Source of the DNA: Ilumatobacter fluminis
Lineage (GTDB): Bacteria > Actinomycetota > Acidimicrobiia > Acidimicrobiales > Ilumatobacteraceae
DNA: 64,000 bases
Assembly: GCF_004364865.1 (NCBI RefSeq)
Contig: NZ_SOAU01000001.1
Coordinates: 4,372,001 to 4,436,000 of the forward strand
Direction of reading: 5' to 3'
Within the stretch, counting starts at the first letter, position 1; each line of letters begins with the position of its first letter. Both the position numbers and the translations under genes were made by a program. Positions 9,847 through 40,057 of the stretch are shown piece after piece. The notes below the pieces were generated by a model. The model did no database searches. It saw only the letters and a list, made by a program, of their open reading frames with translations, and was not told the DNA's origin.

Positions 9847-9858
9847 TTCCACCGACTG

Positions 9859-19404: not shown

Positions 19405-19409
19405 CAAGC

Positions 19410-19606
19410 CCCGGGTCGGGTGTCGCACGGAACACCGAGGCGCACACCGAGGCGCACCACCACCGGGTCGGGTGTCGTACGGAACGGCGAGGCGCAGCCG
19501 AGGCGTTTCGGGAGATCACCCGACCCGGCGCGCACGTCATCACCGGAGTCGGGTGATCTCCGAAAACGTCGACTCCGTCGCCGTTCCCTCCGACACCCGA
19601 CCCGGT
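19410..19606. repeat. Long intergenic palindrome, family C, copy 1
   Basis: The element consists of outer arms CGGGTCGGGTGTCG.../...CGACACCCGACCCG and an inner pair CGTTTCGGGAGATCACCCG / CGGGTGATCTCCGAAAACG around a spacer. A degenerate extra copy of the left unit lies at 19410-19462. It begins six bases after the permease TAA. The three other copies (20904, 34441, 36723) have the same orientation. Confidence 0.88.
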
Positions 19607-19628
19607 TCCTCGTGGGAGGATGCTGTGC

Positions 19629-20900
19629 ATGGCGGGATTCGCGGAGCAGTTGGTGGCGGCACACGGGCGGTACGCGTCGAAGCGGCCGCGGTCGGCCGAA
19701 CTGCACGAGCGGGCGCGGACGGTGATGCCGGGCGGGTCGACCCGGTCGGTGCTCGACATGCAGCCGTTCCCGTTCCGGGTCGCGTCGGCACACGGCGCGC
19801 GCCTCACCGACGTCGACGGACACGAGTACGTCGACTTCCTCGGCGACTACTCCGCCGGGCTCCTCGGCCACGACCCCGGCCCGGTCGAGGCGGCCGTCAC
19901 CGACGCGCTGCGACACGGATGGAGCTACGGCGGCGTCCACACCGACGAGGTCCGCTTCGCCGAGGCGGTCGTCGAGCGCTTCCCGTCGATCGAACAGGTC
20001 CGGTTCACCAACTCCGGTACCGAGGCGAACCTGATGGCGATCCAACTCGCCCGCCACCACACCGGGCGCGACCGGGTCGTCGTGATGGACCGCGCCTACC
20101 ACGGTGGCCTGCTGTACTTCGGTCACGGCGGCGAAGCACTGCTGGCGCCGTTCGAGTTCGACCGGCTTCGCTACAACGACGTCGGCGGTGTGTCGGCGAT
20201 CGACGACGGTGTCGCTGCCGTGCTCGTCGAGCCGATGATGGGTGCCGCCGGGTGCATCGCCGCCGATCCCGTCTTCCTGCGTGCGCTCCGCGACCGGTGC
20301 GACGAGGTCGGGGCGCTGCTCGTGTTCGACGAGGTGATGACGTCGCGCATGAGCACCGGCGGTGCGCAACAGCGGCTCGGCATCACGCCCGACCTCACGA
20401 CACTCGGCAAGTACCTGGCCGGCGGGATGACGTTCGGTGCGTTCGGCGGCCGCGCCGACGTGATGGCAGCGTTCGATCCGGAACGAGGTGGGTCGATGAC
20501 CCACGGCGGCACGTTCAACAACAACGTCGTGACGATGGCGGCTGGCGCGGCGGCGATGCGCGAGCTGCTCGACGAGGCGACACTCGAGTCGCTGTTCGAG
20601 CGCGGTGAGCGCTTCCGCGCCGCTATCGCCGACGTGCTCGACGCCGCTCCCCTGCCGATGTGCGTGTCGGGGTACGGCTCGCTCCTGACGATCCACACCG
20701 TGCCCGGACCGGTGACGTCGCCGGACGATCTCGACGGGGGCGACGCAGCACTCAAGGAGTTGGTCGTCCACGGACTGATCGACCGGGGCTTCTACCTGGC
20801 GCCGCGCGGCTACATGGCCCTCTCGGCCGCCATCACCGACGACGACTGCACCGCGTTCGTCGCGGCCCTCTCCGCCTCCATCGACGCCATCGCTTCCTGA
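19629..20900 (+). CDS. Class-III PLP aminotransferase / glutamate-1-semialdehyde aminomutase-like
   Basis: This 423-residue fold-type I enzyme has FTNSGTEANLMAIQLAR (126-142), LLVFDEVMTSR and the PLP lysine Lys261 in TTLGKYLAGG. The family contains GSA aminomutase (HemL) and aspartate aminotransferase-family proteins of unknown substrate. The context is not heme-related, so a catabolic aminotransferase or aminomutase is more likely. GGGAGG at 19614-19619 sits nine bases before the chosen ATG; an in-frame ATG at 19620 overlaps this ribosome site and is rejected. It stands alone between two family C repeats. Confidence 0.85.
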   Translation: MAGFAEQLVAAHGRYASKRPRSAELHERARTVMPGGSTRSVLDMQPFPFRVASAHGARLTDVDGHEYVDFLGDYSAGLLGHDPGPVEAAVTDALRHGWSYGGVHTDEVRFAEAVVERFPSIEQVRFTNSGTEANLMAIQLARHHTGRDRVVVMDRAYHGGLLYFGHGGEALLAPFEFDRLRYNDVGGVSAIDDGVAAVLVEPMMGAAGCIAADPVFLRALRDRCDEVGALLVFDEVMTSRMSTGGAQQRLGITPDLTTLGKYLAGGMTFGAFGGRADVMAAFDPERGGSMTHGGTFNNNVVTMAAGAAAMRELLDEATLESLFERGERFRAAIADVLDAAPLPMCVSGYGSLLTIHTVPGPVTSPDDLDGGDAALKELVVHGLIDRGFYLAPRGYMALSAAITDDDCTAFVAALSASIDAIAS

Positions 20901-20903
20901 CCC

Positions 20904-21192
20904 CCGGGCCGGGTGTCGGACGGAACACCGAGGCGCAGCCCCAGCCGGGTCGGGTGTCGGACGGAACGGCGAGGCGCAGCCCCAGCCGGGTCGGGTGTCG
21001 GACGGAACGGCGAGGCGCAGCCCCAGCCGGGTCGGGTGTCGGACGGAACGGCGAGGCGCAGCCGAGGCGTTTCGGGAGATCACCCGACCCGGTTGCGCAC
21101 CGCGTTCACCGGAGTCGGGTGATCTCCGGAAACGTCGACTCCGTCGCCGTTCCCTCCGACACCCGACCCGGTTCCCTCCGACACCCGACCCG
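20904..21192. repeat. Family C palindrome, copy 2, with four tandem 41-bp units
   Basis: Four tandem copies of a 41-bp unit start at 20904, 20945, 20986 and 21027; the first has several changes and the last runs into the palindrome core. The right half ends with a duplicated CCTCCGACACCCGACCCG (to 21192). The element starts four bases after the aminotransferase stop and fills most of the 334-bp gap to yaaA. I see no gene here. Confidence 0.9.
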
Positions 21193-21234
21193 CTGAGGTC
21201 CCTGCCTCGGTTCGGGTGGCGGTAGAAAGGAAGG

Positions 21235-22020
21235 GTGCTGATCGTCGTTTCGCCCGCGAAGGCACTCGATTTCGAGTCGCCGCTCCCGACCCGCAAGTTC
21301 TCCGAGCCGGAGCAGCTCGACCGGACCCGGGAGTTGGTCTCGGTGATGCGCGACAAGACGCCCGACGACCTGTCGTCGATGATGGGCATCTCGGCCCAGC
21401 TCGGCGAGTTGAACTTCGAACGGTTCCAGGATTGGTCACCACCGTTCACGCCCGACAACGCCCGGCCGGCGGTGCTCGCCTTCAACGGCGACACCTACAT
21501 CGGACTCGACGCCCGCAGCACCTTCTCCGAGCGCGACTACACCCACGCCCAGAAGGTGCTCCGCATCCTGTCCGGCTTGCACGGCGTGCTGCGCCCGCTC
21601 GACCTGATCCAGCCATACCGGCTCGAGATGGGGTCGAAGGTCGACACCGATCGTGGCCGCACCCTCTACGACTTCTGGGGCGGCGACGTCACCGACCGCC
21701 TCAACGCCGACCTCGCCGCGTCACCCGGATCGAACGTCCTGGTGAACCTGGCGTCGAACGAGTACTTCTCGGTGGTGCAGCCCGACCGGGTCGACGGCAA
21801 GGTCGTCACGCCGCGGTTCGAGGACGCCAAGGGCGACGGTGAACACAAGGTGGTGAGCTTCTTCGCGAAGCGCGCTCGTGGCGCCATGGCGGGTTGGATC
21901 GTGCGCGAACGGATCAAGAGCGCGAAAGCTCTCGCCGAGTTCGACGAGCTCGGTTACCACTACGCAGCCGATCTCTCGACGCCGGACGAACCGGTGTTCC
22001 GCCGCCGCACCGACGCCTGA
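21235..22020 (+). CDS. yaaA: Peroxide-stress protein YaaA (DUF328)
   Basis: The 261-residue product starts MLIVVSPAKALDF, the hallmark of YaaA. It also has LSGLHGVLRPLDLIQPYRLEMG and NLASNEYFSVV, both strongly conserved. In E. coli YaaA lowers free iron during peroxide stress and binds DNA. The start is a GTG preceded by GAAAGGAAG. It is a single gene with no evident partner here. Confidence 0.95.
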   Translation: MLIVVSPAKALDFESPLPTRKFSEPEQLDRTRELVSVMRDKTPDDLSSMMGISAQLGELNFERFQDWSPPFTPDNARPAVLAFNGDTYIGLDARSTFSERDYTHAQKVLRILSGLHGVLRPLDLIQPYRLEMGSKVDTDRGRTLYDFWGGDVTDRLNADLAASPGSNVLVNLASNEYFSVVQPDRVDGKVVTPRFEDAKGDGEHKVVSFFAKRARGAMAGWIVRERIKSAKALAEFDELGYHYAADLSTPDEPVFRRRTDA

Positions 22021-22187
22021 TCGCTCGGCGTCGGGCGACGGCTGCCCGTCCCGGTTCCCGTGTGGCCGCTGGCAGTACGGTAGTGAGCACCGAGTATCTG
22101 CGACGACGCCAGCACTTCCTGACCGACCGGCGCTCGCCGCCGTCCGATTGCCTGGTTCGACGATCACCCGCAATACTCACGTTCTCG

Positions 22188-23021
22188 ATGCCTTCCGCCC
22201 AGAGCTACCCACCGACGACTGCGGTCGTCGAGGCGACCCGCCTCCTGTCGCTGCTCAACCGCTACTCGATCGAACTGACCGACGCGGTCGGCACGGTGCC
22301 GGGTGTGGACGAGCCCGGGAACGGCGAAACCTTGGCGTTGGTCGAGCTGTTCCGCAGCGGGCCGATCAGTTCGAACGACCTCGCCGAGCGGTCGGGGCTG
22401 TCGCGACGTGACACCAACCGGTTGGTGAAGACCCTCGACACGCACGGCCTGATCGAGCGGGTGCCGTCCGAATCGGATCGGCGTGTCTTGCTCGTCGGGC
22501 TGACGCCGGCGGGTCGCCGCCAGCGCACCAAGTTCGTGCGTTCGCTGACGACGTTCTTCGACCGCACGGCTGAGCTGGCCACCACGATCGTCGACGCCTT
22601 CGGCCTCGACGACGAGCCCGAGCTTCGGCCGGTCGGGGACTTGACCGACGCGCTCTCGGCAGCTGCGGCCGTCGCCGGCGCCGGCGTCGCGATCTCGGAC
22701 GCGCTCGACGACGGTGAAAGCTCGCCTCGGCGCCGTTCGGCCATGGCGTTGATCCTGATCGGGACGGGCGAGGTACAACGGCCGTCCGAACTCGCCGAAC
22801 GGCTCGGCTACACGAGCGGCGGCATGGCGCACGTGCTCGACGAGCTCGAGCGCAGCGGTTGGATCGAGCGACGGTACGGCACACTCCCCGACGACCGGCG
22901 TGCCTCGATCGTCTCGCTCACCGACGAGGGGAGCCGGTGGGTCGCGGCGTCGTGCACTGCGGTTCTGGAGTCGGCACCGGCGGTTGCTCCCGTCTTCGCT
23001 GCGCTCAGCGCTCGCGTCTGA
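22188..23021 (+). CDS. Double MarR-type winged-helix regulator
   Basis: This 277-residue protein carries two MarR-like DNA-binding units in one chain. The first (about 45-125) has SSNDLAERSGLSRRDTNRLV and a wing DRRVLLVGLTPAGR. The second (about 185-260) has RPSELAERLGYTSGGMAHVLDEL and DRRASIVSLTDEGSRW. MarR proteins normally dimerise to bring two such units together, so this chain may be a single-chain pseudo-dimer. A GTG at 22083 is in frame but sits beside a -10 box TACGGT (22076-22081), so the ATG at 22188 is used. No ribosome site is evident. The target is unknown. Confidence 0.75.
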   Translation: MPSAQSYPPTTAVVEATRLLSLLNRYSIELTDAVGTVPGVDEPGNGETLALVELFRSGPISSNDLAERSGLSRRDTNRLVKTLDTHGLIERVPSESDRRVLLVGLTPAGRRQRTKFVRSLTTFFDRTAELATTIVDAFGLDDEPELRPVGDLTDALSAAAAVAGAGVAISDALDDGESSPRRRSAMALILIGTGEVQRPSELAERLGYTSGGMAHVLDELERSGWIERRYGTLPDDRRASIVSLTDEGSRWVAASCTAVLESAPAVAPVFAALSARV

Positions 23022-23027
23022 CCGGCG

Positions 23028-23594
23028 TCAGCGGGGTGCGCCGAGCACCATCGTCCAGTAGGGCGTCCCGGTCGACGAGTAGGCGACGGCGACGCCGATG
23101 TGGACGAGCGAACCGTTGAGCATGTTGGCGCGGTGGCCGGGCGAACCGAGCCAGGCGTCGGTCACGCTCGAGGCGGTGCGCTGCCCGGCGGCGACGTTCT
23201 CGGCGATCGCGCTCCACGAGTAGCCGGACGCGTCGACGCGATTGGCCATCGTCGAGCCGTTCGAGCCGGTGTGCGACATCCGCTGGTGCGCCGCCTGGTC
23301 GTTCGAGTGCGCCTGCGCCGCTTGAACCAGTCGTGGATGCACGGTGAGCGGCGCGAGCCCGTACTGCGCGCGCACGGCGTTGGTGCGCTCGACCACGACC
23401 GTGGCGGGGTCCGCGGCGGGTTGTGAGGGCGGGGGCGGCGTCGCCGACACCTGGACCGAGCCGCCCCGCTCGGCATCGGTGCGCGCGCGAGCGACGAGTT
23501 CGGGAGGGCTGGCACCGCCCACGACGGACGTGGTGCCGATCAGGGTTGCGGCGGCCGCGCCGATGACGACCGGGATGACTCGGAGGGTTCGCAC
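23028..23594 (-). CDS. Secreted CAP/SCP-domain protein (YkwD-like)
   Basis: This 188-residue protein has a signal peptide (hydrophobic region about 5-25) and a proline-rich linker PPPPSQPAADP. The CAP domain at about 65-186 contains HSNDQAAHQRMSHTG and AWLGSPGHRANMLN. The function of bacterial CAP proteins is mostly unknown. The GTG start has AGAAAGG six bases upstream. It is convergent with the MarR gene, only six bases away. Confidence 0.88.
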   Translation of the reverse strand: MRTLRVIPVVIGAAAATLIGTTSVVGGASPPELVARARTDAERGGSVQVSATPPPPSQPAADPATVVVERTNAVRAQYGLAPLTVHPRLVQAAQAHSNDQAAHQRMSHTGSNGSTMANRVDASGYSWSAIAENVAAGQRTASSVTDAWLGSPGHRANMLNGSLVHIGVAVAYSSTGTPYWTMVLGAPR

Positions 23595-23691
23595 TGTGTG
23601 CCTTTCTGCCCGCTAGCAGATCGGCCCGCTCCACCCAGTTCTAGCGCCGGTCTCGCCGCCCGACACGGCACCGTCGCGTCGGTCCTGCGTA

Positions 23692-25521
23692 TCAGGGTCG
23701 CGGTTCACCCGTCCGGATGACGACGTCGTGTCGGAGGAGTTCGTCGCCCCGCCAGTCCATGGCGACGAGGGCGACCGCGACACCGTCGACGGCCGGCTCG
23801 ATCTCGACCATGCCGAAGTGGCCACCGCCGGTGATCGGGCCGAGGGTGTACGGGCCGCCCTTCGTGCTCCCCGGTCGGTCGAGTGCGGCGACGTGGAGCA
23901 GCGGGAAGCCCGCTCCGTCGGCGGTCGAGTAGTTCGTGTGGGTGCCGTCGTCGATCGCCACCATGTGGGCGTCGCCGGACACCATCACGAGGTTGTCGAT
24001 GCCGAGCGACGCGATGTGGTCGGCGATCATCCGACGTTCGGCGTCGTAGCCGGCCCAGGAGTCGGCACCGGGTTCGGCCGGATCGACCCACGGAACGGGG
24101 TTCGCCCAGACGACGAGATCGTGATCTCGGGCGCTGCGCTCGAGCTCGGCGAGAAGCCAGCGCCGTTGTTCGTCGCCGAGCATCGACTTGGTCGGCGTGT
24201 CGGGGTCGCTCTGCGGGTCGCGGGCCGAACGGGCGTCGGTCAGGACGACGCGGGTGGTGCCGATCGTGAACGCCTGGAAGATCGCCGAGTCGGGCCCGGC
24301 GAGGTCGTAGTGCGGCACGTACTCGCGGTACGCGACCATGGCCGACGCCCGGCCGGGCGCGTCGCGGTTCGAGTCGTTGGGGCCGTAGTCGTGGTCGTCC
24401 CAGACGTAGCCGATGGGGGTCGATCGGTACAGCGCCGCTTGGGCCGGTCGGGTCAGCTGGACGTCGAACACCTGGCGGTAGTCGTCGACGTCGTCGACGA
24501 ACACGTCGCCGTAGTGGAAGTCGCCGAGGCAGACGTACACATCGGGGTCGAGTTCTCGGATCGCGTCGAAGACCTGTCCGTTCGAGCCGGTGCGGGCGCA
24601 CGAGGTGAAGACGAGGCGCAACGGCTGGTCGTCGTCGGGGAACGTCCGGAACGAACCCGCACGGACGAGGTCGAGTTCACCGTCGACGGCGACGGCGTAG
24701 AAGTACGGCGTCGCCGGTTCGAGACCGTCGACTCGGAACTCGGCGACGCGGTCGTAGACGTCGGCGTACTCGAAGGTGCCGACCACGTCGGTGAGGTCGG
24801 CGTTGCGGGCGACGACCAGCTCGGCGTTGGTGAACGGTTGGGTCGGCCGGGCGCGAACGGTGCAACTGGTCGTCGTCATGGCACCGCACCACGCCCAGTC
24901 GAGTGGAGAGTCGGGGAGTTCGGCGAGGTCGCTCTCGGGATGGGTCGGCCCCCAGATCAGGTCGTAGACGTATCGCCCCAGTGCGGTGCCGGCGACCACG
25001 GCGGCGGCACCACCGGCGACCGTGAACAGGAACCGCCGGCGGTCGAGCGTCATCGCTTTCATCGGCGCAATGTCGTCGGTGTCGACGTCCCCATGGTCGT
25101 CGTCTGCCACTTCTCGGCCGCGTTCCGTCAGGCCGATCGACAGCCATGCGAGCACGGCGACTGAGATCGTGCCGATCAGGAAGACAGCCGACCAGGGAAC
25201 GAGTTGCTGCTGGGCGAACGGCACGAAGGTGGCGACGGCGAACAGCCCGACGACGCCGCCGGTCAGCGGCCAGCGCCAGCTCACTGCAGCACTGATCAGG
25301 AAGGCGATGAAGAAGACCGGGAGCACCCGGTCGTCGAACAGGGCACCGCCCGGCTGCACCTCGACGAAGGTCCGACCTCGTCCGACCAGCCCGACGATCG
25401 ACAGCGCAGCCACGTACGCGACCGTGCCGATCAGCAGCCAGCGCCGCAGGCGCGACGGCGCGCGTGGTTGCTCGGTATCGGTGTCGATGACCTCATGGTG
25501 CCACCGGACGCGTCGGCCCAA
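23692..25521 (-). CDS. PhoD-type alkaline phosphatase with N-terminal membrane domain
   Basis: The 609-residue protein has about three hydrophobic helices in residues 28-125, then RRRFLFTVAGGAAAVVAGTALG (about 160), which resembles a Tat-type segment buried in the chain. The PhoD N-terminal beta domain follows (DWAWCGAMTTTSCTVRA). The metallophosphatase core has FTSCARTGSNGQ, VCLGDFHYGD, YVWDDHDYGPNDSNRD and MVSGDAHMVAID. It should hydrolyse phosphodiesters or monoesters at the outer membrane face. The only start I find is TTG at 25521. A fusion of a membrane domain to PhoD is known but not the commonest form. Confidence 0.85.
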   Translation of the reverse strand: MGRRVRWHHEVIDTDTEQPRAPSRLRRWLLIGTVAYVAALSIVGLVGRGRTFVEVQPGGALFDDRVLPVFFIAFLISAAVSWRWPLTGGVVGLFAVATFVPFAQQQLVPWSAVFLIGTISVAVLAWLSIGLTERGREVADDDHGDVDTDDIAPMKAMTLDRRRFLFTVAGGAAAVVAGTALGRYVYDLIWGPTHPESDLAELPDSPLDWAWCGAMTTTSCTVRARPTQPFTNAELVVARNADLTDVVGTFEYADVYDRVAEFRVDGLEPATPYFYAVAVDGELDLVRAGSFRTFPDDDQPLRLVFTSCARTGSNGQVFDAIRELDPDVYVCLGDFHYGDVFVDDVDDYRQVFDVQLTRPAQAALYRSTPIGYVWDDHDYGPNDSNRDAPGRASAMVAYREYVPHYDLAGPDSAIFQAFTIGTTRVVLTDARSARDPQSDPDTPTKSMLGDEQRRWLLAELERSARDHDLVVWANPVPWVDPAEPGADSWAGYDAERRMIADHIASLGIDNLVMVSGDAHMVAIDDGTHTNYSTADGAGFPLLHVAALDRPGSTKGGPYTLGPITGGGHFGMVEIEPAVDGVAVALVAMDWRGDELLRHDVVIRTGEPRP

Positions 25522-25551
25522 ACGGCACGGCGACCGGCAGCGGGTTCGAGG

Positions 25552-26478
25552 TCAGGCGATCTGGATCACGCCGTAGCCGAGGAGTGTGCCGTCGCTGTTC
25601 TGCTCGAGGGTCAGCAGGTAGTCCTCATAACCCTCCGACGGGAAGACGTTGTCGTTCGCGATCGGCGTGTCCTGCACGCCGCGGTCGGCGTACTGCTCGT
25701 GGGTCGTGCAGATCTCGGTGGTGAACGCCTCCGGGAAGCCCCACTGCGAGATGACGCGGGACGTGCCGTCGGGATCGGTCACTGCGAAGTGGATGTGGAT
25801 CGTCCGGCCGGAGTACCAGCCGGGGAACACGGTGGCGAAGTTGACGCGACCGCTGGCATCGGTGGTGAGTTGTCCGCGGAAGTAGGTGCTCTGTTCGGCT
25901 TCGGCGTCGCCCGCGGTGCAGAAGTCGCCGGCGAAACGGTCGGCATCGTCGCTGCTGCTGGTGTCACCCGAGTAGATCCCTCGGACGTCGCAGTGCCACG
26001 CCTCGATCGTGTAGCCCTCGAGCGGGTTGCACTGCTCGTCGACGAGTCGGGCGCACAGCTGCATCGGGAGTCCGGTCTTGCCGAGCGAGATGTCCTCACC
26101 CGTGTCGGACTGGAAGTAGCAGGGCCCTTCCGTCGTGGCCGCCGTGAGTGCGACGGCGCACGTGGCGGCGGTGGCGAAGATCGAGTCGTCCGGGTAGTCG
26201 ACGGTGATCAAGTCGGTCCCACCCGACGCCCACGCCCCGGCGGTTGCCGTCGATGTCGTCCCGTCGACGCCGGCCGTCGTGCCGGTCGCGCTGTCGGCGT
26301 CGGCGTCCGTCGTGACGCTGGTCGACGAGGGGGCAGCGGTGCCGCTGGTACCGCCGACGGTGTTCGTGCCGGTGGACGAGGCGGCCCCGTCGCCACCGCA
26401 CGAGGCGAGGAAGGCAACCGCAGGAGCGGCCAGCAGGCCGGTCACGACGCTGCGTCGGGAGAGGGTCCGAGGTGTCAT
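25552..26478 (-). CDS. Secreted intradiol ring-cleavage dioxygenase-like lipoprotein
   Basis: The protein has 308 residues. Its N-terminus has twin arginines, a hydrophobic core and lipobox ASC (Cys27), followed by a long Ser/Thr-rich linker. The C-terminal half matches the intradiol dioxygenase fold: DVRGIYSGD, FATVFPGWYSGRTIHIHFAV gives the HxH iron ligands, and YSGR a tyrosine. Such exported paralogues of protocatechuate dioxygenase are common in actinobacteria, and their substrates are mostly unknown. TAGCAT eight bases before the ATG is a likely -10 box. Confidence 0.85.
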   Translation of the reverse strand: MTPRTLSRRSVVTGLLAAPAVAFLASCGGDGAASSTGTNTVGGTSGTAAPSSTSVTTDADADSATGTTAGVDGTTSTATAGAWASGGTDLITVDYPDDSIFATAATCAVALTAATTEGPCYFQSDTGEDISLGKTGLPMQLCARLVDEQCNPLEGYTIEAWHCDVRGIYSGDTSSSDDADRFAGDFCTAGDAEAEQSTYFRGQLTTDASGRVNFATVFPGWYSGRTIHIHFAVTDPDGTSRVISQWGFPEAFTTEICTTHEQYADRGVQDTPIANDNVFPSEGYEDYLLTLEQNSDGTLLGYGVIQIA

Positions 26479-26576
26479 GGACGCCGATGCTACGGACGCC
26501 TTCTCCGAACGGACCGTGACGAACCTCAGAGCTCGCCGTGAGTTCTCGCACGGGCCACGATGGGCCCGCCGACGAA

Positions 26577-27449: not shown

Positions 27450-27498
27450 GTCGTTCACGTACCCGCTCGCCGGAGCGGTAATCACCGGAGCCGGGTGT

Positions 27499-28638: not shown

Positions 28639-28680
28639 GGTGACGCACAACCTAGGTCGACCCAACCCATCCGGGCGACT

Positions 28681-28721: not shown

Positions 28722-28746
28722 CTTGGTGGGTTCTGGGACGTGAGGG

Positions 28747-29934
28747 TCAGCGGTTCCAGGAGGTCCAGTAGGTCTCGTCGGCGACGTGGCGGGCGGCGTC
28801 GGTGAGGCGGAGGGGGCGGAAGGTGTCGAGCATGACGGCGGTCTCGCCCGTGCGGTCCTGGTCGACGCTCGCCTCGAAGCTGCCGGGTTGCGGGCCGTGC
28901 ACGAAACCGGCCGGGTGGTACGAGATCGACCCGATACCGATGCCCGATCCGGCCCGGCTCATGAAGTTGCCGTCGCTGTAGAACAGCACCTCGTCGGAGT
29001 CGGTGTTGGCGTGGTGGTACGGCACCTTCACAGCATCGGGGTGGAAGTCGTAGAGGCGTGGCACGAACGAACACACCACGAACCCGGGCCCCTCGAACGT
29101 CTGGTGGACCGGCGGTGGCTGGTGCAGGCTGCCCACGATCGGTTCGAAGTCGGAGATGGCGAGCGCCCACGGGAAGAGCTGGCCGTCCCACCCGACGACG
29201 TCGAAGGGATGTTGGCGGTGGACGTGCCGGCTGAGGCCCGAGCGAGTGCGCACGACGACGGGCACGTCGTCGCCGTCTTCGAGCAGCGGTGCATCGGGTG
29301 CCCGCAGGTCGCGCTCGCAGAAGGGCGCGTGTTCGAGGAACTGTCCGGCCGACGACAGGTACTTGTGCGGTGGGGCGACGTGGCCGCTGCTCTCGATGAC
29401 GAGCAACTCGAGCCGCTCGCCGCTCGTCCAGCGATGGGTGGTCGATGCCGGGACGACCACGTAGTCGCCCGCGGCGACCTCGAGCCGGCCGAACACCGAC
29501 TCGAGCACTGCGTCGCCCTGTTGGACGTAGACGAGTTCGTCGCCCGTCGCGTTGCGGTACAGCGTGCTCGTCCCGCCGGACGTCGACGACCACGACAGCC
29601 GGACGTCGTCGTTCGCGAGCAGCAGGTGACGATCGAGTACCGGATCGGCACCCGCAGCCAGTTCGCCGGTCCGCAGATGGCGCGGCGTCAACGGGTGGTC
29701 GGGCGTCGCCACGGCGGCCGAGCCGCCGGACCCATCGGCCGCGTCGACCGACTCGACCGCCTCGATCGCCGACAGTGCCGAGGGCGAGTGCCGGTGGTAC
29801 AGCAGCGACGAGCGTGACGAGAAGCCCTCCTGCCCCATCAGCTCCTCGTGGAAGCGATGCCCGTCACCGTCGCGGAACACCGTGTGCCGCTTACGGGGAA
29901 CGTCACCGACGCGGTGGTAGTACGGCATGGTCAC
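28747..29934 (-). CDS. hmgA: Homogentisate 1,2-dioxygenase
   Basis: This 395-residue cupin enzyme cleaves homogentisate to maleylacetoacetate in tyrosine catabolism. Seen are YHRVGDVPRKRH at the N-terminus, RLELLVIESSGHV, FPWALAISDFEPIVG, YHHANTDSDEVLFYSDG and SISYHPAGFVHGPQPG; the last two supply His and Glu iron ligands. It is shorter than the about 440-residue mammalian and Pseudomonas enzymes but keeps the core. The ATG overlaps the fahA stop (ATGA). It is the last gene of hpd-fahA-hmgA. Confidence 0.93.
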   Translation of the reverse strand: MTMPYYHRVGDVPRKRHTVFRDGDGHRFHEELMGQEGFSSRSSLLYHRHSPSALSAIEAVESVDAADGSGGSAAVATPDHPLTPRHLRTGELAAGADPVLDRHLLLANDDVRLSWSSTSGGTSTLYRNATGDELVYVQQGDAVLESVFGRLEVAAGDYVVVPASTTHRWTSGERLELLVIESSGHVAPPHKYLSSAGQFLEHAPFCERDLRAPDAPLLEDGDDVPVVVRTRSGLSRHVHRQHPFDVVGWDGQLFPWALAISDFEPIVGSLHQPPPVHQTFEGPGFVVCSFVPRLYDFHPDAVKVPYHHANTDSDEVLFYSDGNFMSRAGSGIGIGSISYHPAGFVHGPQPGSFEASVDQDRTGETAVMLDTFRPLRLTDAARHVADETYWTSWNR

Positions 29935-31196
29935 TGGCCTCCGTGGGGTTGGTGGGGTGCGGGGTGGGGTTCGATGATGGTGCCGGCGACGGTGCCGAGC
30001 CCGATGCGTGTGGCCGGGTCGGCGCCGGCCCAGCCACGCAGTTCGACCCGATCCCCGTCGAGCAGGAAGGTGCGCTCGGTGCCGTCGGGGAGGGCGATCG
30101 GCCGGTCACCGTTGGCGGACAGTTCGATGAAGCTGCCTTCGGTGCCGGGGGTCGGGCCCGACACGGTTCCCGACGCGAACAGGTCGCCCGGCTCGGTCGA
30201 CGCGCCGTTCACCGTCAGATGGGCGAGCTGCTGCGCCGGCGTCCAGTACATGTCGGCGAAGCCGGTCGAGCTGAAACGGACCGGCGATTGGCCGGCAGCG
30301 CGCATCGCGGCCGAGTCGAGCCACACCTCGAGGTGCAGATCGAGGCCCCACGGCGCGTCGGTCGAGAGATACTCGGCGGGCGGCGGCTCCTGCTCGGGCG
30401 GCACGACCCGGAACGGTTCGAGCGCTTCGAACGAGACGAGCCAGGGAGACACCGAGGTCGCGAAGCTCTTTCCGAGGAACGGTCCGAGCGGTTGGTACTC
30501 GTACGCCTGGATGTCGCGCGCCGACCAGTCGTTGACGAGGCAGATGCCGTACAGGTGGTCGGCGGCAGCGCCGATGGGGATCGGCGCGCCGATCTCGTTG
30601 CCGACGCCGACGACGGTGCCGACCTCGAGTTCGATGTCGAGTCGTGTGCTCGGCCCCACCACGGGTTCGCCGTCGATCAGCCGATAGCCGACCGGTCGCC
30701 GGATCGGGGTGCCGTCGGCGACGAGCGTTCCGGTGCGGCCGTGGTAGCCGATCGGGACGCGCCGCCAGTGGGGCATGAGCGCGTCGCCGTCGGGTCGGAA
30801 CATGCGGCCGAGGTTCGTGGCGTGATGGATCGACGAGTAGAAGTCGACGTAGTCGGTCGGCGCGACCGGGACGCCCATCGTCAGCTCGGATCGGGCCACC
30901 ACGTGCTCGCGGTCGGTGGGGAGCCGGCCGTCGATCGCCTCGCGCACTCGGGCGCGTACCGCTCGCCACGTGTCGGGGCCTGCGGCGAGGTACCGGTTCA
31001 GGTTCGGGTCGGCGAACACACCCGGTTCGAGGTCGAGTCCGTCGAAGACACCGGCGTGGTGCATCCCGTCGAGGTCGATCGCATGATCGCCGATCGCCAC
31101 CCAGGCGCGCCGACGGTTGTCGCCAGGGTGCCCGACACCGAACGGCAGGTTGGTGACGGGGAACGGCGAACCGTCGGGAACGGGGACCGCCTCCAT
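29931..31196 (-). CDS. fahA: Fumarylacetoacetase
   Basis: The 421-residue hydrolase cleaves fumarylacetoacetate to fumarate and acetoacetate. The N-terminal SH3-like part holds LPFGVGHPG, and the catalytic part has YVDFYSSIHHATNLGRMFRP, LVNDWSARDIQAYEYQPLGPF and LGKSFATSVSPW, which include the metal Asp and active Lys. The start codon shares a base with the hpd stop (TGATG), indicating coupled translation. A maleylacetoacetate isomerase is not in the window. Confidence 0.95.
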   Translation of the reverse strand: MEAVPVPDGSPFPVTNLPFGVGHPGDNRRRAWVAIGDHAIDLDGMHHAGVFDGLDLEPGVFADPNLNRYLAAGPDTWRAVRARVREAIDGRLPTDREHVVARSELTMGVPVAPTDYVDFYSSIHHATNLGRMFRPDGDALMPHWRRVPIGYHGRTGTLVADGTPIRRPVGYRLIDGEPVVGPSTRLDIELEVGTVVGVGNEIGAPIPIGAAADHLYGICLVNDWSARDIQAYEYQPLGPFLGKSFATSVSPWLVSFEALEPFRVVPPEQEPPPAEYLSTDAPWGLDLHLEVWLDSAAMRAAGQSPVRFSSTGFADMYWTPAQQLAHLTVNGASTEPGDLFASGTVSGPTPGTEGSFIELSANGDRPIALPDGTERTFLLDGDRVELRGWAGADPATRIGLGTVAGTIIEPHPAPHQPHGGQ

Positions 31197-32314
31197 CAGA
31201 GGTTGCCGCGCCGCTCCTGCTCGCGCTCGATCGATTCGAAGAGCGCTTTGAAGTTGCCTTCGCCGAAGCCGCGAGCTCCGCCGCGCTGGATGATCTCGAC
31301 GAAGACCGTCGGTCGGTCGCTCACCGGCTCGGAGAAGAGCTGGAGCAGATGGCCGTCGGGTTCGTGATCGACGAGGATGCCGAGCCGGCGGATCTCGTCC
31401 CACGGCAGATCGAGGAAGCCGAGCCGTTCCGTGACGTCGTCGTAGTAGGCGTCGTTGGCTTCGAGGAAGCGCACCCCTCGTGCTCGCAGCGATCCGATCG
31501 ACTGGACGATGTCGCCGGTGCGGAAGGCGAGGTGCTGCACGCCCGGGCCGCGGTACGTGTCGATGTACTCCTGGATCTGGCTCTTGCGGCGCCCCTCGGC
31601 CGGTTCGTTGAGGGGCATCACGATGTTGTTCCCGTTCCACACGACGGTCGAGCGGAGCGCCGAGAACTCGGTGGCGATCTGCGACTCGTCGAAGTGGCGG
31701 AGCTGGGTGAAGCCCATGACCTCTTCGTAGAACGACACCCACTCGTCGAGGTGGTGTTCTTCGACGTTGCCGACGACGTGGTCGATGTCGACGAGGCCGA
31801 CCTCGGGACCGGCGGGCATCGGCGGCACGCCGTCGCGTTCGAACCCGGGGCAGTAGTAGCCGGCGTAGTCGCGGCGGTCGACGAAGGTGTGCTTCGTCTC
31901 GCCGTAGGTGGCGACCGACGACAGGCGCAGCACGCCGAAGTCGTCGCGCAGTTCATACGGCTCGTCGACGGGGCGGGCGCCACGGGCGATCGCCGCTTCG
32001 TAGGTGGCGGTGGCGTCGTCGACGACGAAGGCGAGATCGTGGGCGCCGTCGCCGTGCTGGCGGACGTGGTTCCAGATCGGTGACTCGGGGGTGAGGCCCG
32101 ACGTGACGACGAGGCGGATGTTGCCCTGCTCGAGCAGGTACGACGCACGGTCGGCGACGCCCGTCTCCGGTCCGGCGTACGCGGTGACGGTGAAGCCGAA
32201 CGAGCCCGACAGGAAACCCGCCATGGCCCGGGCGTTGCCGACCCAGAACTCGATCGAGTCCCAGCCGGTCAGGCGTGCGGCGGGTGTGGTGGCTGCAGGT
32301 GCGGTGTCGGTCAC
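31196..32314 (-). CDS. hpd: 4-hydroxyphenylpyruvate dioxygenase
   Basis: This 372-residue non-heme iron dioxygenase has two vicinal-oxygen-chelate domains. Ligands are visible in VGLVDIDHVVGNV (His), GVQHLAFRTGDI (His) and PTVFVEIIQRGG (Glu), and the C-terminal FGEGNFKALFESIE helix gates the active site. It makes homogentisate from hydroxyphenylpyruvate. The GTG at 32314 follows a strong GGGGGA ribosome site. It leads the tyrosine operon, divergent from an Lrp regulator. Confidence 0.96.
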   Translation of the reverse strand: MTDTAPAATTPAARLTGWDSIEFWVGNARAMAGFLSGSFGFTVTAYAGPETGVADRASYLLEQGNIRLVVTSGLTPESPIWNHVRQHGDGAHDLAFVVDDATATYEAAIARGARPVDEPYELRDDFGVLRLSSVATYGETKHTFVDRRDYAGYYCPGFERDGVPPMPAGPEVGLVDIDHVVGNVEEHHLDEWVSFYEEVMGFTQLRHFDESQIATEFSALRSTVVWNGNNIVMPLNEPAEGRRKSQIQEYIDTYRGPGVQHLAFRTGDIVQSIGSLRARGVRFLEANDAYYDDVTERLGFLDLPWDEIRRLGILVDHEPDGHLLQLFSEPVSDRPTVFVEIIQRGGARGFGEGNFKALFESIEREQERRGNL

Positions 32315-32330
32315 GATGTCCCCCTGGGTG

Positions 32331-32352
32331 GATCGGTTCGGTGATCGGTTCG
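32331..32352. promoter_or_regulatory. Direct repeat in the hpd/Lrp control region
   Basis: GATCGGTTCG occurs twice, at 32331-32340 and 32343-32352, with two bases between, so the repeat lies on one helical face roughly every 12 bp. It is 17 bases upstream of the hpd start and could be an operator for the divergent Lrp protein. Confidence 0.4.
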
Positions 32353-32392
32353 AACTCCCAGTCTCGGATCGGGCGATTGATCGGCGCAATAG

Positions 32393-32422
32393 TTCGACGA
32401 ATCTCTGTGCAGGTCGTACAGT
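32393..32422 (+). promoter_or_regulatory. Promoter of the Lrp regulator gene
   Basis: TTCGAC (32393-32398), 18 bases, TACAGT (32417-32422). The predicted transcript would start near 32430. TTCGACGAA at 32393-32401 is also a perfect 9-bp palindrome and may bind a regulator. Confidence 0.45.
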
Positions 32423-32455
32423 CGACAGCGAGTCGACATGGACGGAGTGGACAGA

Positions 32456-32914
32456 ATGATCGAACTCGACGACATCGACCGAGCGCTGCTCCGCATCCTG
32501 CGCGAGCAGCCGCGCACGCCGATCGCCGAGGTGGCGAGACTGGCGTCGGTCGCCCGCGGTACGGCGACCGCCCGCCTGGCGCGCATGGAAGAGGCCGGCG
32601 TGATCACCGGCTACGGACCCGACGTCGACGCGCGAGCGATCGGCTTCGGCGTGCTCGCCTTCGTCACGCTCGAGATCGCCCAGGGCCACGGCCCGTCGGT
32701 GGTCGACCATCTCGCCGCGATCTCCGAGGTGCTCGAGGTGCACGCGGTGACGGGACCGGGTGATCTGCTGTGCCGGATCGTCGCCCGGTCGAACGAACAT
32801 CTCGACGAGGTGCTGCAGGACGTGCTCTCGCTCCCGGGCGCCCGCCGCTCGGAGACCCACCTCGCCCTCGGCACCCGTTTCCACCGCACCGCTGCCGACC
32901 TCGCCATCCGCTGA
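32456..32914 (+). CDS. Lrp/AsnC-family regulator of tyrosine catabolism (probable)
   Basis: The product has 152 residues: winged helix (about 1-55, LDDIDRALLRILREQPRTPIAEVAR) and a RAM ligand-binding domain (about 65-150). It is divergent from hpd and is the natural candidate to control the operon in response to an aromatic amino acid or keto acid. An earlier in-frame ATG at 32438 exists, but GGAG lies eight bases before the ATG at 32456 and the Lrp domain begins there. The role is inferred from position. Confidence 0.85.
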   Translation: MIELDDIDRALLRILREQPRTPIAEVARLASVARGTATARLARMEEAGVITGYGPDVDARAIGFGVLAFVTLEIAQGHGPSVVDHLAAISEVLEVHAVTGPGDLLCRIVARSNEHLDEVLQDVLSLPGARRSETHLALGTRFHRTAADLAIR

Positions 32915-33020
32915 CGCCCCTGCCCTCCCCAGACCCCCGTTCATGTCGCGCTCAGTTCCGTCACCGGTACCTCAGACCGACATCAACATCCGGTAGGCGG
33001 TCGGTGGCGGGGTTCGTGGG

Positions 33021-34439
33021 ATGATCGCTCGGGTGCGGCAACCGAACATCGTGCTGATCAACTGCGACGACCTGGGGTACGGCGACCTCGGGTGCTACGG
33101 CTCGCAGCGCAACGACACCCCGACGCTCGACCGGCTCGCCGCCGAGGGGATGCGGTTCACCGACTTCTACATGGCGTCGCCGGTCTGCTCGCCGTCACGA
33201 GGAGCGATGCTCACCGGCTGCTACCCACCGCGCATCGGGTTCGGCTCGTTCGACGGGCTGCCGGTGCTGTTCCCCGGCCAGCGGCTCGGGCTCGACACCG
33301 GTGAGACGACGTTGGCGTCGATGCTGCGCGACGCCGGGTACGCGACGCAGCACGTCGGCAAGTGGCACTGCGGCGATCAGCCCGAGTTCCTGCCGACGCG
33401 GCACGGCTTCGACCACTCCTTCGGCATCCCGTACTCGAACGACATGGGCCGCCAGCACATGCCCGACGGCATGCCGAACTGGCCGGCCAAGCTCGCCGAG
33501 ATGGGGATCGCCATCGCCGACGAGTATCCGCCGCTGCCGCTCCTGCTCGACGACGAGGTGTTCGAGCAGCAGCCCGATCAGGCGTCGCTCACCGCCCGCT
33601 TCGCCGCCGAGTCGGTGCGGTTCATCCGGGCGAACCAGGACCGGCCCTTCTTCCTGTACCTGGCGCACATCTACGTGCACCTGCCGATCTACGTGCAGCA
33701 GCGGTTCGCCGATGCGTCGCACAACGGCGCGTACGGCGCTGCGGTGGCGAGCATCGATTGGACGACCGACGTGATCCTGACCGAGCTCCGCCGGTTGGGT
33801 CTCGACGAGGACACGATCGTGATCTTCACGAGCGACAACGGGTCGCGCGCTCGCGACGAGGGCGGGAGCAACGAACCGCTGCGCGGCGTGAAGGGCGAGA
33901 CGTGGGACGGTGGGTTGCGGGTGCCGTTCATCGTCCGGTGGCCGGGGCGCGTGCCGGCGGGCAGCGTGTGCTCGGCCGTGACGTCGGCGATCGACCTGCT
34001 GCCGACGTTCGCCTCGCTGGCTGGCGGCGCGTTGCCCGACCGCCCGATCGACGGGCACGACATCACCCCGCTGCTCGACGGCGCCGACGGCGACTCCGAT
34101 CGGGTGTTCGCGTACTACCGCGGGAACGCACTGGCGGCCGTGCGGCAGGGCCGATGGAAGCTGCACGTGGCTCGGGGCGACGAGTCGGTGGAGGAGCTGT
34201 ACGACCTGGTCGACGACGTCGGTGAGACGAACGATGTCTCCGGCGAGCAACCCGATGTGGTCGCGGCGTTGTCGGCGATCGCCGAGTCGATCCGGGCCGA
34301 CCTCGGCGACGACCGGTTGGGCGTCGACGGTCCGGGCCGTCGATCGGCGGGCGTGGTCGACGCCCCCTCACCGCTCACCACCTACGACCCCGGCCACCCC
34401 TACTTCGCCAACGAGTACGACCTCAGCGACCGAGGCTGA
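33021..34439 (+). CDS. Sulfatase (formylglycine-dependent arylsulfatase family)
   Basis: This 472-residue alkaline-phosphatase-fold hydrolase has the metal site NIVLINCDDLGYGDLGCYG and the maturation motif CSPSR (Cys56, Pro58, Arg60), where Cys becomes formylglycine. It also has HVGKWHCG and FTSDNGSR. It removes sulfate from an organic ester, perhaps a sulfated sugar. No signal peptide is seen. The formylglycine-generating enzyme is not nearby. Family C copy 3 begins one base after the stop. Confidence 0.93.
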   Translation: MIARVRQPNIVLINCDDLGYGDLGCYGSQRNDTPTLDRLAAEGMRFTDFYMASPVCSPSRGAMLTGCYPPRIGFGSFDGLPVLFPGQRLGLDTGETTLASMLRDAGYATQHVGKWHCGDQPEFLPTRHGFDHSFGIPYSNDMGRQHMPDGMPNWPAKLAEMGIAIADEYPPLPLLLDDEVFEQQPDQASLTARFAAESVRFIRANQDRPFFLYLAHIYVHLPIYVQQRFADASHNGAYGAAVASIDWTTDVILTELRRLGLDEDTIVIFTSDNGSRARDEGGSNEPLRGVKGETWDGGLRVPFIVRWPGRVPAGSVCSAVTSAIDLLPTFASLAGGALPDRPIDGHDITPLLDGADGDSDRVFAYYRGNALAAVRQGRWKLHVARGDESVEELYDLVDDVGETNDVSGEQPDVVAALSAIAESIRADLGDDRLGVDGPGRRSAGVVDAPSPLTTYDPGHPYFANEYDLSDRG

Positions 34440-34440
34440 C

Positions 34441-34700
34441 CCCGGGTCGGGTGTCGTACGGAACGCCGAGGCGCAGCCGAGGCGTTTCGGGAGATCACCC
34501 GACCCGGACGCGCACCCTGGTCACCGGAGTCGGGTGATCTCCGGAAACGTCGACTCCGTCGCCGTTCCCTCCGACACCCGACCCGATTCCTCTTCGTCGC
34601 CGTTCCCTCCGACATCGGACCCGGTTCGTCTCCGTCGCCGTTCCCTCCGACATCGGACCCGGTTCGTCTCCGTCATCGTTTCCGGCACCTGACCCGGTTC
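34441..34700. repeat. Family C palindrome, copy 3, with right-half tandem units
   Basis: The core palindrome is at 34441-34585. It is followed by three degenerate right-half units, two of them with CGTTCCCTCCGACATCGGACCC and the last with the altered GTTTCCGGCACCTGACCC, up to 34700. So this copy has expanded on its right side while copies 2 and 4 expanded on the left. The 284-bp gap between the sulfatase and 34724 is essentially all repeat. Confidence 0.88.
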
Positions 34701-34723
34701 GTCGTCGGCCGTTAGGGTGGGGT

Positions 34724-35095
34724 GTGGTGGGACGAGCGCTTCGGGCTCTGTTGGCCGTCGTGGCCGTGGCGTTGATGGCACTGCCTGCCTCCGATGCCTC
34801 CGCCCACACCGGACCGCGCTCGCCCGATGCGGCACTGACCGCCCACGACGGCACCGTCGTCGGCAACTCACAGCTCGAGTCGACCGTCGACCCGGCGGTG
34901 CTCCGATCCGGTTCCGACTCGGGCAACCGCCACGACGTCCGGACCCGCATGACGGCGTTCGTCACGCCCGAGACGGCCGGCGTCGCCGCCACCGCCTCGT
35001 GGTGGACCCGGATCGTCGATCGCACCGTCACACCGGCACGACACGGCGTCGACCGAGCCGCCGACGCCCGCGGCCCTCCCGCCCGAGACGGCTGA
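34724..35095 (+). CDS. Small secreted hypothetical protein
   Basis: The 123-residue product has a clear signal peptide (VGRALRALLAVVAVALMALPASDASAHT in two parts: Arg-rich start, hydrophobic core, ASA cleavage site near residue 27). The remainder is polar, without recognisable domain. TAGGGT at 34713-34718 is five bases before the GTG start at 34724 (eight before a second GTG at 34727), supporting a leaderless real gene. The function is unknown. Confidence 0.5.
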   Translation: MVGRALRALLAVVAVALMALPASDASAHTGPRSPDAALTAHDGTVVGNSQLESTVDPAVLRSGSDSGNRHDVRTRMTAFVTPETAGVAATASWWTRIVDRTVTPARHGVDRAADARGPPARDG

Positions 35096-35216
35096 CTCCC
35101 CGGCGCCCTGACGCCGCCTCCGGCCGCGCCCGAGCGGTCGACGTCTCATCCCGTGCGTGCGATGCCGCACGCGCCCGGCTCCGTGCCGGAACACCGGAAC
35201 CACGGGAGGTCCACCG

Positions 35217-35657
35217 GTGACATCCTCCATCTCCGAGCGCGTCGAACGACGCGCCGAACCATCCGACTTCTACGAACGGTGGGGTGCCCTCGTGATCGCG
35301 GTCTGCATCGCGATCGGGTTCGGGGTCGCCCTGCCCACCGGGCCGCCCACCGTCACCGTGACGGTGCACAACCCGACCGACTACCGCCTCTACGTCAAGG
35401 CGTCGACACCGACCGACGACACCCTCAGCTTCGTCGGCGTGGTCGGCCCCGACGGCACACTCGAATCCGGGGTGATCGACCGCGGCGGCGACTGGATCCT
35501 CCACCTCCGCACCCTCGGCTCACCGGCCGGGGAAATAGCCGTGACGCGATCCGAGTTGACCAGTGGGACCGTCCGCATCCCCGACTCGGTGACCGATGAC
35601 CTGCGGGCAGCGGGTGTGAAACCGATCGCCGCCGCACCGATACTCGCAAGCCCATGA
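35217..35657 (+). CDS. Hypothetical single-pass membrane protein
   Basis: This 146-residue protein has a short cytoplasmic start (SERVERRAEPSDFYERW), one transmembrane helix (about 25-45, ALVIAVCIAIGFGVALP) and an extracytoplasmic beta-rich part with VTVTVHNPTDYRLYV. A GTG start follows GGGAGG by six bases. It overlaps the next gene by ATGA, so it is probably co-expressed with the flippase-like protein. No family was recognised. Confidence 0.65.
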   Translation: MTSSISERVERRAEPSDFYERWGALVIAVCIAIGFGVALPTGPPTVTVTVHNPTDYRLYVKASTPTDDTLSFVGVVGPDGTLESGVIDRGGDWILHLRTLGSPAGEIAVTRSELTSGTVRIPDSVTDDLRAAGVKPIAAAPILASP

Positions 35658-36718
35658 CCACCCTCGACACCACGACCGACGACCGGGAGGTGGCCGCGCT
35701 CGACGAGCCGGCCGAACCGGCGTCGGGGCGGCGGCGCTGGCTGCGGCTGGCGCTGCGGGTCGTGGTGTGGCCGGCGGTGATCGCCGCGATCGTCGTGCCG
35801 CAGCTGCCCCGTTTCCGCGAAGCGTCGGTCGAGCTGCAGTCGATCAGCTGGGAGCGGCTGGTGTTCGGGTTCGTGCTCGTGCTCGCCTCGATCGCCTGCT
35901 ACTCGGGTCTGACGAGGACCGGGCTGGGCGCCGGCGACGACGTCCGGCACGGCACCGTGTTCCGGATCCAGCTGAGCACCCGGGCGTTGGCGAACGTGGT
36001 GCCGGGCGGGAATGCGACCGCGTCGGCGCTCGGGTTCCGGTTGCTCACGCGGGCCGGTGCCTCGAACACCGGCGCCGGCGTGGCGCTCGCCACCGCCGGG
36101 ATCGGTTCGGCGATCGTGCTGAACGTCGTGTTCTGGGCGGCGCTGATCATCGTCATCCCGACCCGAGGCGCCGACCGCCACCTCATCACGATCGCCGCGC
36201 TCGGCGGCATCGTGCTCGCACTGCTGTTGCTCGCGATCGCGGTCGTCGGCCTGGGCGGCGAGCGCGTGGCCGGACCGATCCGTCGTCTGGCGGCGAAGGT
36301 CGGGCTCGACCTGACGGCGCCGATGCGGGTCGTCGACAACGCACGTGGCCGGATCGGCGACCTGATCGCCGATCGTCGTCGGCTGGCTCGGATCGGCGGC
36401 TGGTCGATCGGACAGTGGACGTTCGACATGGCGGCGCTCTGGGTGTTCCTCAGCGCGTTCGACATCTCGCTGCACCCGCTGGTGCTGATCCTGTTGTTCG
36501 GCGCTGCCAACATCGCCGCGGCGGTACCGATCACGCCCGGCGGCATCGGGGTGGTCGAGGGCGTGTACATCGCGTCGCTCGTGCAGCTCGGGTTCACGCT
36601 CGAAGCGGCGACGTTCGGGATCGCGGCGTATCGCTTCGCCCAGTACGTCTTCCCCATCGGGGCCGGCGCCCTCAGCTACGCCACCCTCAAGGTCGGCCCC
36701 TGGCGCCTCGACCCCTGA
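35654..36718 (+). CDS. Flippase-like membrane protein (LPG-synthase transmembrane domain, UPF0104)
   Basis: This 354-residue integral membrane protein has about eight hydrophobic helices. NVVPGGNATASALGFRLL and AAVPITPGGIGVVEGVY are the family signatures. The domain is the flippase part of MprF but here lacks the lysyltransferase half. It may move a lipid or lipid-linked sugar. It is coupled to the small membrane protein upstream. Confidence 0.88.
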   Translation: MTTLDTTTDDREVAALDEPAEPASGRRRWLRLALRVVVWPAVIAAIVVPQLPRFREASVELQSISWERLVFGFVLVLASIACYSGLTRTGLGAGDDVRHGTVFRIQLSTRALANVVPGGNATASALGFRLLTRAGASNTGAGVALATAGIGSAIVLNVVFWAALIIVIPTRGADRHLITIAALGGIVLALLLLAIAVVGLGGERVAGPIRRLAAKVGLDLTAPMRVVDNARGRIGDLIADRRRLARIGGWSIGQWTFDMAALWVFLSAFDISLHPLVLILLFGAANIAAAVPITPGGIGVVEGVYIASLVQLGFTLEAATFGIAAYRFAQYVFPIGAGALSYATLKVGPWRLDP

Positions 36719-36722
36719 CCCA

Positions 36723-36962
36723 CCAGGTCGGGTGTCGTACGGAACACCGAGGCCCACACCAACCGGGTCGGGTGTCGTACGGAACACCGAGGCGCACACC
36801 AACCGGGTCGGGTGTCGTACGGAACACCGAGGCGCAGCCGAGGCGTTTCGGGAGATCACCCGACCCGATCGCACCCACGTCACCGGAGTCGGGTGATCTC
36901 CGGAAACGTCGACTCCGTCGCCGTTCCCTCCGACACCCGACCCGCGTCCGACACCTGACCCG
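36723..36962. repeat. Family C palindrome, copy 4, with three tandem 40-bp units
   Basis: Left units start near 36723, 36763 and 36803 with a period of 40 bp, the last running into the palindrome core (36803-36945). A short extra right end follows to 36962. It lies five bases after the flippase stop and is convergent with the gene at 36880-37359, whose reading frame ends inside it. Confidence 0.88.
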
Positions 36963-40029: not shown

Positions 40030-40057
40030 CGTTCGCGGCCGGCACTACCGTGGCGTC

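Follow-up and report, generated by a model that had tools for sequence, protein, structure and literature searches.

A new palindrome family in Ilumatobacter fluminis that is probably a REPIN-like repeat tied to a Y1 HUH transposase

The window analysed here, a stretch of 64,000 nucleotides (G000:C1:4372001-4436000) from the single-contig genome of Ilumatobacter fluminis (G000; 4,775,416 bp), contains four copies of a palindromic repeat that we call family C; coordinates without a prefix are window positions. Family C is very probably a REPIN-like repeat that is non-autonomous and linked to a Y1 HUH transposase of the RAYT/TIRYT type, that is, a tyrosine transposase associated with repetitive extragenic palindromes (REP) or with terminal inverted repeats (TIR). 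It is a new palindrome family of a known kind, the RAYT/TIRYT-associated inverted pairs, with unusual arms, arrays of half-arms and rewriting at conserved sites. An earlier note on this DNA had recognised no named family in it. This holds for Rfam, in which the window has 0 matches over the gathering threshold, but not for the kind of element, since inverted REP-like pairs with a Y1 HUH transposase are known. No tRNA or tmRNA was found in the window.

A family C element consists of two unequal arms, both bulged stem-loops, placed in inverted order around a short spacer. Typically, T1, the long arm (63 nt), contains GAGGCGCAGCCGAGGCG and T2, the short arm (59 nt), contains GACGGAGTCGACG. Each arm folds with GGGTCGGGTG/CACCCGACCC as its outer stem, and its inner stem is built around GGAACG/CGTTTC. 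The four palindromes of like orientation described earlier were all found, with paired-arm cores of 139-141 bp at 19465-19603, 21029-21169, 34444-34584 and 36805-36943 and with the long arm on the left in 4/4. Each copy follows a plus-strand gene, as had been stated, and begins 4-8 bases past the stop codon. The inner arm said to be shared by the copies, GAGATCACCCGAC, occurs exactly eight times in the window; when up to two mismatches are allowed there are 14 matches against 5.5 expected, a number reached in 0/100 shuffles. RNA structure prediction, which had been proposed as a check, gave copy 3 a fold of -100.8 kcal/mol (-64.6 when shuffled, z -8.4). Tandem Repeats Finder returned the main expansions on the sides where they had been reported: on the left in copy 2 (period 41, 3.9 copies) and copy 4 (period 40, 3.0 copies), and on the right in copy 3 (period 38, 4.1 copies). 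However, expansion is not limited to one side per copy, because copies 2 and 4 hold a short right half-unit (22 and 18 bp) in addition to the left array. Copy 1 also has one additional left half-unit, 52 bp upstream.

The same architecture is found across the genome and in a sister family, R. Among 41 close pairs, 38 point inward and 3 outward; the outward ones lie at G000:C1:2796177-2796323, 3336388-3336525 and 4584426-4584566, and in the last of them an R arm lies next to a C pair. The arms are unequal in 37/38 inward pairs, including 32/32 pure C pairs, the exception being an R pair at genome position 121318. Spacers measure 13-27 nt in C and 52-53 nt in six R pairs. All of these R pairs (6/6) contain the spacer core GGTGCGCG exactly, and in the 32 C pairs it is exact in 10, has one mismatch in 9 and two to four differences in 13. 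An alignment of copies, as the earlier note had asked for, was possible over the full length for 28 C and 4 R arms, with 22 invariant columns. The R arms differ from the C arms at GGGTCAGGTG/CACCTGACCC and at GGTGACG/CGTTACC, with the base pairs kept; the compensatory changes are 6-60 (GC to AU) and 18-47 (GU to UA) from C to R, and 16-49 (GC to CG) from T1 to T2. The stated structure is paired in 98.8% of the cells, against 93.9% after shuffling, and 24 cells are changed on both sides against 7.5, a count to which only four R arms contribute. The number of pairs with changes on both sides (4 vs 2.2, reached in 46/500 shuffles) and the number of further pair types (10 vs 8.7, 106/500 shuffles) were unexceptional. 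The alignment shows that compensatory changes preserve the arm stems and that C and R share one architecture.

The repeats are numerous in this genome. GAGATCACCCGAC occurs 42 times on the forward and 43 times on the reverse strand (reversed control, 0 and 0), and a covariance model of the arms (R1) found at least 150 arms. Among those listed, 105 are of type C and 45 of type R, an assignment that depends on one base (column 6) in a census that missed many second arms of R; mixed C/R marks occur in 6/150 listed arms. At E 1e-4 and with stricter filters, the matches in 41 genomes numbered at least 130 in G000, 81 in Ilumatobacter sp. HKST-UBA13 (G003), 59 in Acidimicrobiaceae bacterium NAT239 (G002) and 2 in G007. 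The exact C core was present in 35 stretches of a named genome collection, which may omit records of the window's own genome. These were 24 stretches in the two sister genomes, HKST-UBA13 and NAT239, and 11 single matches in other taxa that are probably due to chance. Two whole R pairs, at genome positions 70109 and 4033159, are 97.4% identical over 196 bp and have unrelated flanks; whole pairs are thus dispersed at unrelated loci.

The link to a transposase is invisible from the window alone because the gene lies about 116 kb outside it. The single Y1_Tnp match in G000 is in the open frame 4552035-4552892 of the genome. Its protein matches PF01797 (E 3.8e-7) and the NCBIfam model NF047646, 'REP-associated tyrosine transposase' (E 2.4e-14; 53 bits, below the cut-off of 80), and contains the motifs HxH (NHYH) and YxxxNP. 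A search of solved structures gave no Y1 relative, the best match being named CAP REPEAT (E 0.001). R arms bound the gene in inverted order at G000:C1:4551956-4552020 (+) and 4552871-4552935 (-), and outside them lie two 36-bp half-arm repeats on the 5' side and three 32-bp ones on the 3' side. Y1_Tnp was matched in 8/10 genomes of the genus (11 matches), and 10/11 of these loci, read by eye except for L065, are bounded by palindromes or inverted repeats, some of them imperfect. Two further palindrome families of the window, A and B, point to the sister genomes. One arm of family A is identical to the palindromes bounding the transposase gene in HKST-UBA13, and one arm of family B is a single base away from the palindromes that bound the gene in NAT239; no transposase gene bounded by A or B was found in G000. 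These relationships suggest a single type of system behind the window families A, B, C and R. The NAT239 copy of the transposase gene has an internal TAG. When up to one mismatch is allowed, the core of family A occurs 69+72 times in the I. fluminis genome (0 for the reversed control), mostly as pairs about 55 bp apart among the matches listed.

We infer that family C is mobilised by a transposase, and several results weigh against this reading. Neither transposition nor cleavage nor a single-strand intermediate was observed. The exact match of the spacer between C and R is only partial, and GTAG or GTGG stands within six bases before GGGTC in 0/150 listed arms. Pfam recognised no helix-turn-helix (HTH) domain at E up to 1 in three proteins (only Y1_Tnp), although a diverged domain could escape such a search. 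The C core GGGTCGGGTG was absent from 41 transposase loci scanned, except for the larger locus L064, in which a separate C pair (4554777 in the genome) lies about 2 kb beyond the G000 transposase gene. The 41 loci comprise the 11 genus loci and 30 from a search of the family (22/150 genomes matched); some cover one gene twice, their palindromes are in part interrupted by runs of N and not every locus was read by eye. The sister genomes that carry C are fragmented (NAT239 81% complete, HKST-UBA13 79%). As no C-bounded transposase was found, the enzyme of family C is missing, unseen or identical to that of R. Because the GTAG foot is absent and neither an HTH domain nor C's own transposase was found, strict membership is less well supported than a REPIN-like way of working. 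The orientation of the pairs relative to replication also bears on this question. The long arm is on the left in 2/17 intact pairs of the right replichore and in 14/20 of the left one (37 pairs, p 6.5e-4; the terminus was assumed, with the same result for 1.7 to 2.5 Mb). This would be compatible with the insertion at the replication fork, into one of the strands, that has been described for IS608-like enzymes (in texts among PMC3733652, PMC6006769, PMC8266576 and PMC3116915). The bias weakens to p 0.017 over 71 elements, and the 34 elements scored only by their spacer show none (p 1.0). It is suggestive only: the wider test weakened it, adjacent copies cannot count as independent, and the pattern had already been noticed when it was tested.

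The earlier note proposed that the copies grow by unit addition on either side, and the arrays bear this out through both their frequency and their linkers. Extra half-units are present on 45/144 outer arms (24 with one, 15 with two and 6 with three), as scored by a detector that covers 320 bases with chained spacing of 18-60 and misses degenerate arrays such as that of copy 3, as well as the outermost unit of copy 2. Linkers have a likeness of 0.83 in 27 comparisons within arrays and of 0.35 in 990 comparisons between loci, so that half-unit growth is local. In 48/64 half-units of the four main arm classes, odd classes being excluded, resemblance to the parent arm breaks off close to the hairpin tip, at positions 26-35. 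Half-units of C type and R type occur together in about ten arrays. An origin of the linkers from the upstream flank was dropped, as the likeness of 0.46 (0.37 when shuffled, 0/2000 as high) was carried largely by arrays that the detector had shortened. The near-identity of linkers within an array and the end of likeness at the hairpin tip are also what plain slippage or unequal exchange would leave behind with no involvement of the transposase, and we hold this explanation of the arrays to be a serious possibility, if slightly on the improbable side. Against it stand the C before GGGTC at 68/72 internal junctions, which resembles the element edges, and the presence of similar arrays beside the transposase gene. 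At the outermost junctions the base before GGGTC is C in 131/144 cases, and this C may belong to the element and not to the target. Three cut-down C elements, at G000:C1:104461, 2782167 and 3156053, keep T2 and the spacer and end directly after CCGGGTC, as if cut; a similar CCGGGTC is seen at the copy 3 junction in NAT239.

Family C sites were compared between G000 and the sister genomes over about 0.26 Mb of G000 (5% of the 4.78 Mb genome). In the sister genomes, 8/24 C clusters (6/12 and 2/12) map both flanks to one G000 element locus. Within the window, the sites of copies 1 and 3 each hold an R unit in HKST-UBA13. NAT239 has no element at the copy 3 site, but as it also lacks about 1.07 kb of the G000 sequence (34442-35512), this does not amount to a strict empty site. 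At the copy 4 site NAT239 has no element, and HKST-UBA13 has a C pair whose arms are in reversed order, with one additional half-unit on the left. There (36723-36961 against G003:C296; L185, L111) the right neighbour is the same and the left neighbour maps to 40052-41148, so that a rearrangement ends at the element. At the shared sites at 2796, 4033 and 2661 kb of the genome G000 has R where the relative has C. At 3910 kb a G000 pair scored as R+C corresponds to a single C arm in the relative, at 4602 kb G000 has an R/C mosaic arm and the relative a C pair, and at 4774 kb G000 has an R pair and the relative an R59+C59 composite. Both genomes have C at 1542 kb, with different arrays, and at 605 kb, with the arms swapped. 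The proposed comparison of unit numbers thus found half-unit numbers differing at shared sites between related genomes. The direction of the family changes cannot be read, since the relatives were chosen for having the C core. Of the remaining 16 clusters, 10 had no flank match in the G000 stretches compared, 3 matched by one flank only and 3 did not map to one site. Of these last, L094 has its two flanks on the same side of the G000 element, and in L092 and L111 the two flanks match separate G000 elements, so that none of the three was kept as a shared site.

Family, arm order and array length thus differ at the same intergenic site between related genomes, and the frequent finding of another family, swapped arms or other array lengths at shared gaps implies that units change in place. 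It is also conceivable that C and R were inserted independently into the same small gaps, with no conversion or strand transfer. Suitable gaps behind stop codons are few, and the flanks directly beside the units are not identical. We nevertheless judge independent insertion somewhat unlikely, as 8/24 clusters share a G000 element locus although only about 5% of the genome was compared, and as mixed C/R arms and the R59+C59 composite (L115) exist. At G000:C1:1608047-1609334 (L036, L220), about 1.2 kb lies between two C arms in a place where NAT239 has a single C arm, and this difference may represent gene loss or gain by exchange between copies.

The palindromes might instead be mainly transcription terminators or mRNA 3'-end stabilisers under selection, with their spread incidental. 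This would agree with the placement of all four window copies just behind a stop codon, with very stable, covarying stems and with the excess of convergent over divergent gaps. For 78/109 clusters the genes on both sides could be called; the gaps are convergent in 29, co-directional in 42 and divergent in 7, according to a gene-strand caller that was correct in 56/61 test segments and was trained on the same window. However, a scan for terminators of the T-run type found no stem with a T-run in the four copies and only 2 terminator-like sites in 19300-37100 (3.8 expected), neither in a copy. Moreover, NAT239 lacks an element at the copy 3 and copy 4 places, the orientation of the long arm showed no link to gene direction in 20 co-directional cases (p 0.67), and REPs of other phyla, as far as the texts cited below describe them, are also found mainly downstream of genes. 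A primary role as terminators or stabilisers is therefore unlikely. The clusters are dense near dnaA (G000:C1 4679819, 4.68 Mb), with 53/112 lying within 0.5 Mb against 23.5 expected, in a count based on a slightly different clustering from that of the 109.

Known systems were compared as described in PMC3733652, PMC6006769, PMC8266576 and PMC3116915. The TIR/TIRYT systems (TIRtrons, PMC3733652; subclass 2.1 in PMC6006769) resemble the present one in a Y1 HUH transposase bounded by non-GTAG inverted repeats, here R, and in TIRs shared as families, in dimers or clusters. Their motif GGGGWSAS fits GGGGTCAG at the 3' flank of the transposase gene and in the window families A and B, whereas the 5' flank reads CGGGTCAG, and C reads GGGTCGGG, which no longer fits. 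The C-terminal HTH described for subclass 2.1 was not found here, where a diverged domain could be missed, and half-arm arrays and unequal bulged arms set the present system apart. The word 'actinobacteria' occurs 0 times in the main texts of PMC3733652 and PMC6006769; the present host belongs to the Acidimicrobiia (Actinomycetota). REPINs and bacterial interspersed mosaic elements (PMC3116915) are likewise intergenic and hairpin-forming, with inverted pairs as the spreading unit, tandem clusters and a transposase in the genome. They differ in that the arms here are 59-65 nt long, lack the GTAG foot and are unequal in all C pairs, and that the arrays consist of half-arms and not of whole pairs. 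A cognate RAYT gene flanked by the same repeat is seen for R in G000, A in HKST-UBA13 and B in NAT239, and was not found for C. The enterobacterial and other REP heterodimers of PMC3733652 also have two unlike arms, conserved spacers and a location behind genes, but their arms are short, carry GTAG and are unrelated in sequence. IS200/IS605 elements such as IS608 (described in part in PMC6006769) share the Y1 HUH enzyme, hairpin ends and the lack of a noticed target duplication; here, by contrast, the gene is single-copy and far outnumbered by non-autonomous copies. Target-site duplication, a classical feature of miniature inverted-repeat transposable elements, was not seen by eye in 15 C elements with flanks. 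Literature searches returned nothing on gene conversion of REPs at orthologous sites or on REP transposases with Streptomyces, and those including Ilumatobacter repeats or palindromes did not find family C in print, the matches being judged unrelated by their listing alone.

The features of the window are collected in Table 1. The genes upstream of copies 1-4 encode a transport permease, a class-III aminotransferase, a sulfatase and an LPG-synthase-TM protein, respectively.

Table 1. Palindromic repeat features of the window (window positions)
Feature	Position	Strand
Copy 1, one extra half-unit and linker (52 bp)	19413..19464	+
Copy 1, long arm T1 (63 nt stem-loop)	19465..19527	+
Copy 1, spacer, 17 nt	19528..19544	.
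Copy 1, short arm T2 (59 nt stem-loop), inverted	19545..19603	-
Copy 2, three extra 41-bp left half-units, the outermost with one core mismatch	20906..21028	+
Copy 2, long arm T1	21029..21091	+
Copy 2, spacer, 19 nt	21092..21110	.
Copy 2, short arm T2, inverted	21111..21169	-
Copy 2, one short (22 bp) right half-unit	21170..21191	-
Copy 3, long arm T1	34444..34506	+
Copy 3, spacer, 19 nt	34507..34525	.
Copy 3, short arm T2, inverted	34526..34584	-
Copy 3, degenerate array on the right with three additional half-units (period ~38; GGGTCCGATGTCG twice and GGGTCAGGTGCCG once)	34585..34697	-
Copy 4, two extra 40-bp left half-units	36725..36804	+
Copy 4, long arm T1	36805..36867	+
Copy 4, spacer, 17 nt	36868..36884	.
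Copy 4, short arm T2, inverted	36885..36943	-
Copy 4, one short (18 bp) right half-unit, R type (GGGTCAGGTGTCG)	36944..36961	-
Sister family R, 65-nt arm (the family bounding the transposase gene of this genome)	43619..43683	+
Sister family R, 59-nt arm	45277..45335	-
Family A palindromes (GGGGTCAGGCACCTTC)	9763-9847, 12407-12491, 50999-51078, 63705-63791	
Family B palindromes (GGGGTCAGACCCC)	533-615, 47699-47781	

In the mechanism that we favour for family C, the transposase, or a lost relative of its kind, would recognise the arms as single-stranded hairpins, cut next to GGGTC, at the C|GGGTC junction where arms usually start, and rejoin the strands. New elements would settle next to stop codons, where the host tolerates them; copies already present would be overwritten or lengthened, with slippage or gene conversion assisting at the tip of the hairpin. 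If neighbouring genes are affected at all, through the stability of mRNA 3' ends, this would be secondary. A bolder version, which we consider quite improbable, makes the transposase an in-place editor that prefers existing copies: by cutting at C|GGGTC and rejoining single strands it would rewrite family, arm order and half-arm number while the sites stay occupied, and the half-arm arrays would be its leftovers.

The spread of REP-type repeats has mostly been inferred and seldom watched. The genome of I. fluminis holds one transposase with its cognate repeats, a sister family without a known one and arrays with readable break points. The versions found at the same sites in the sister genomes make it testable whether such repeats jump to new sites or rewrite old ones.

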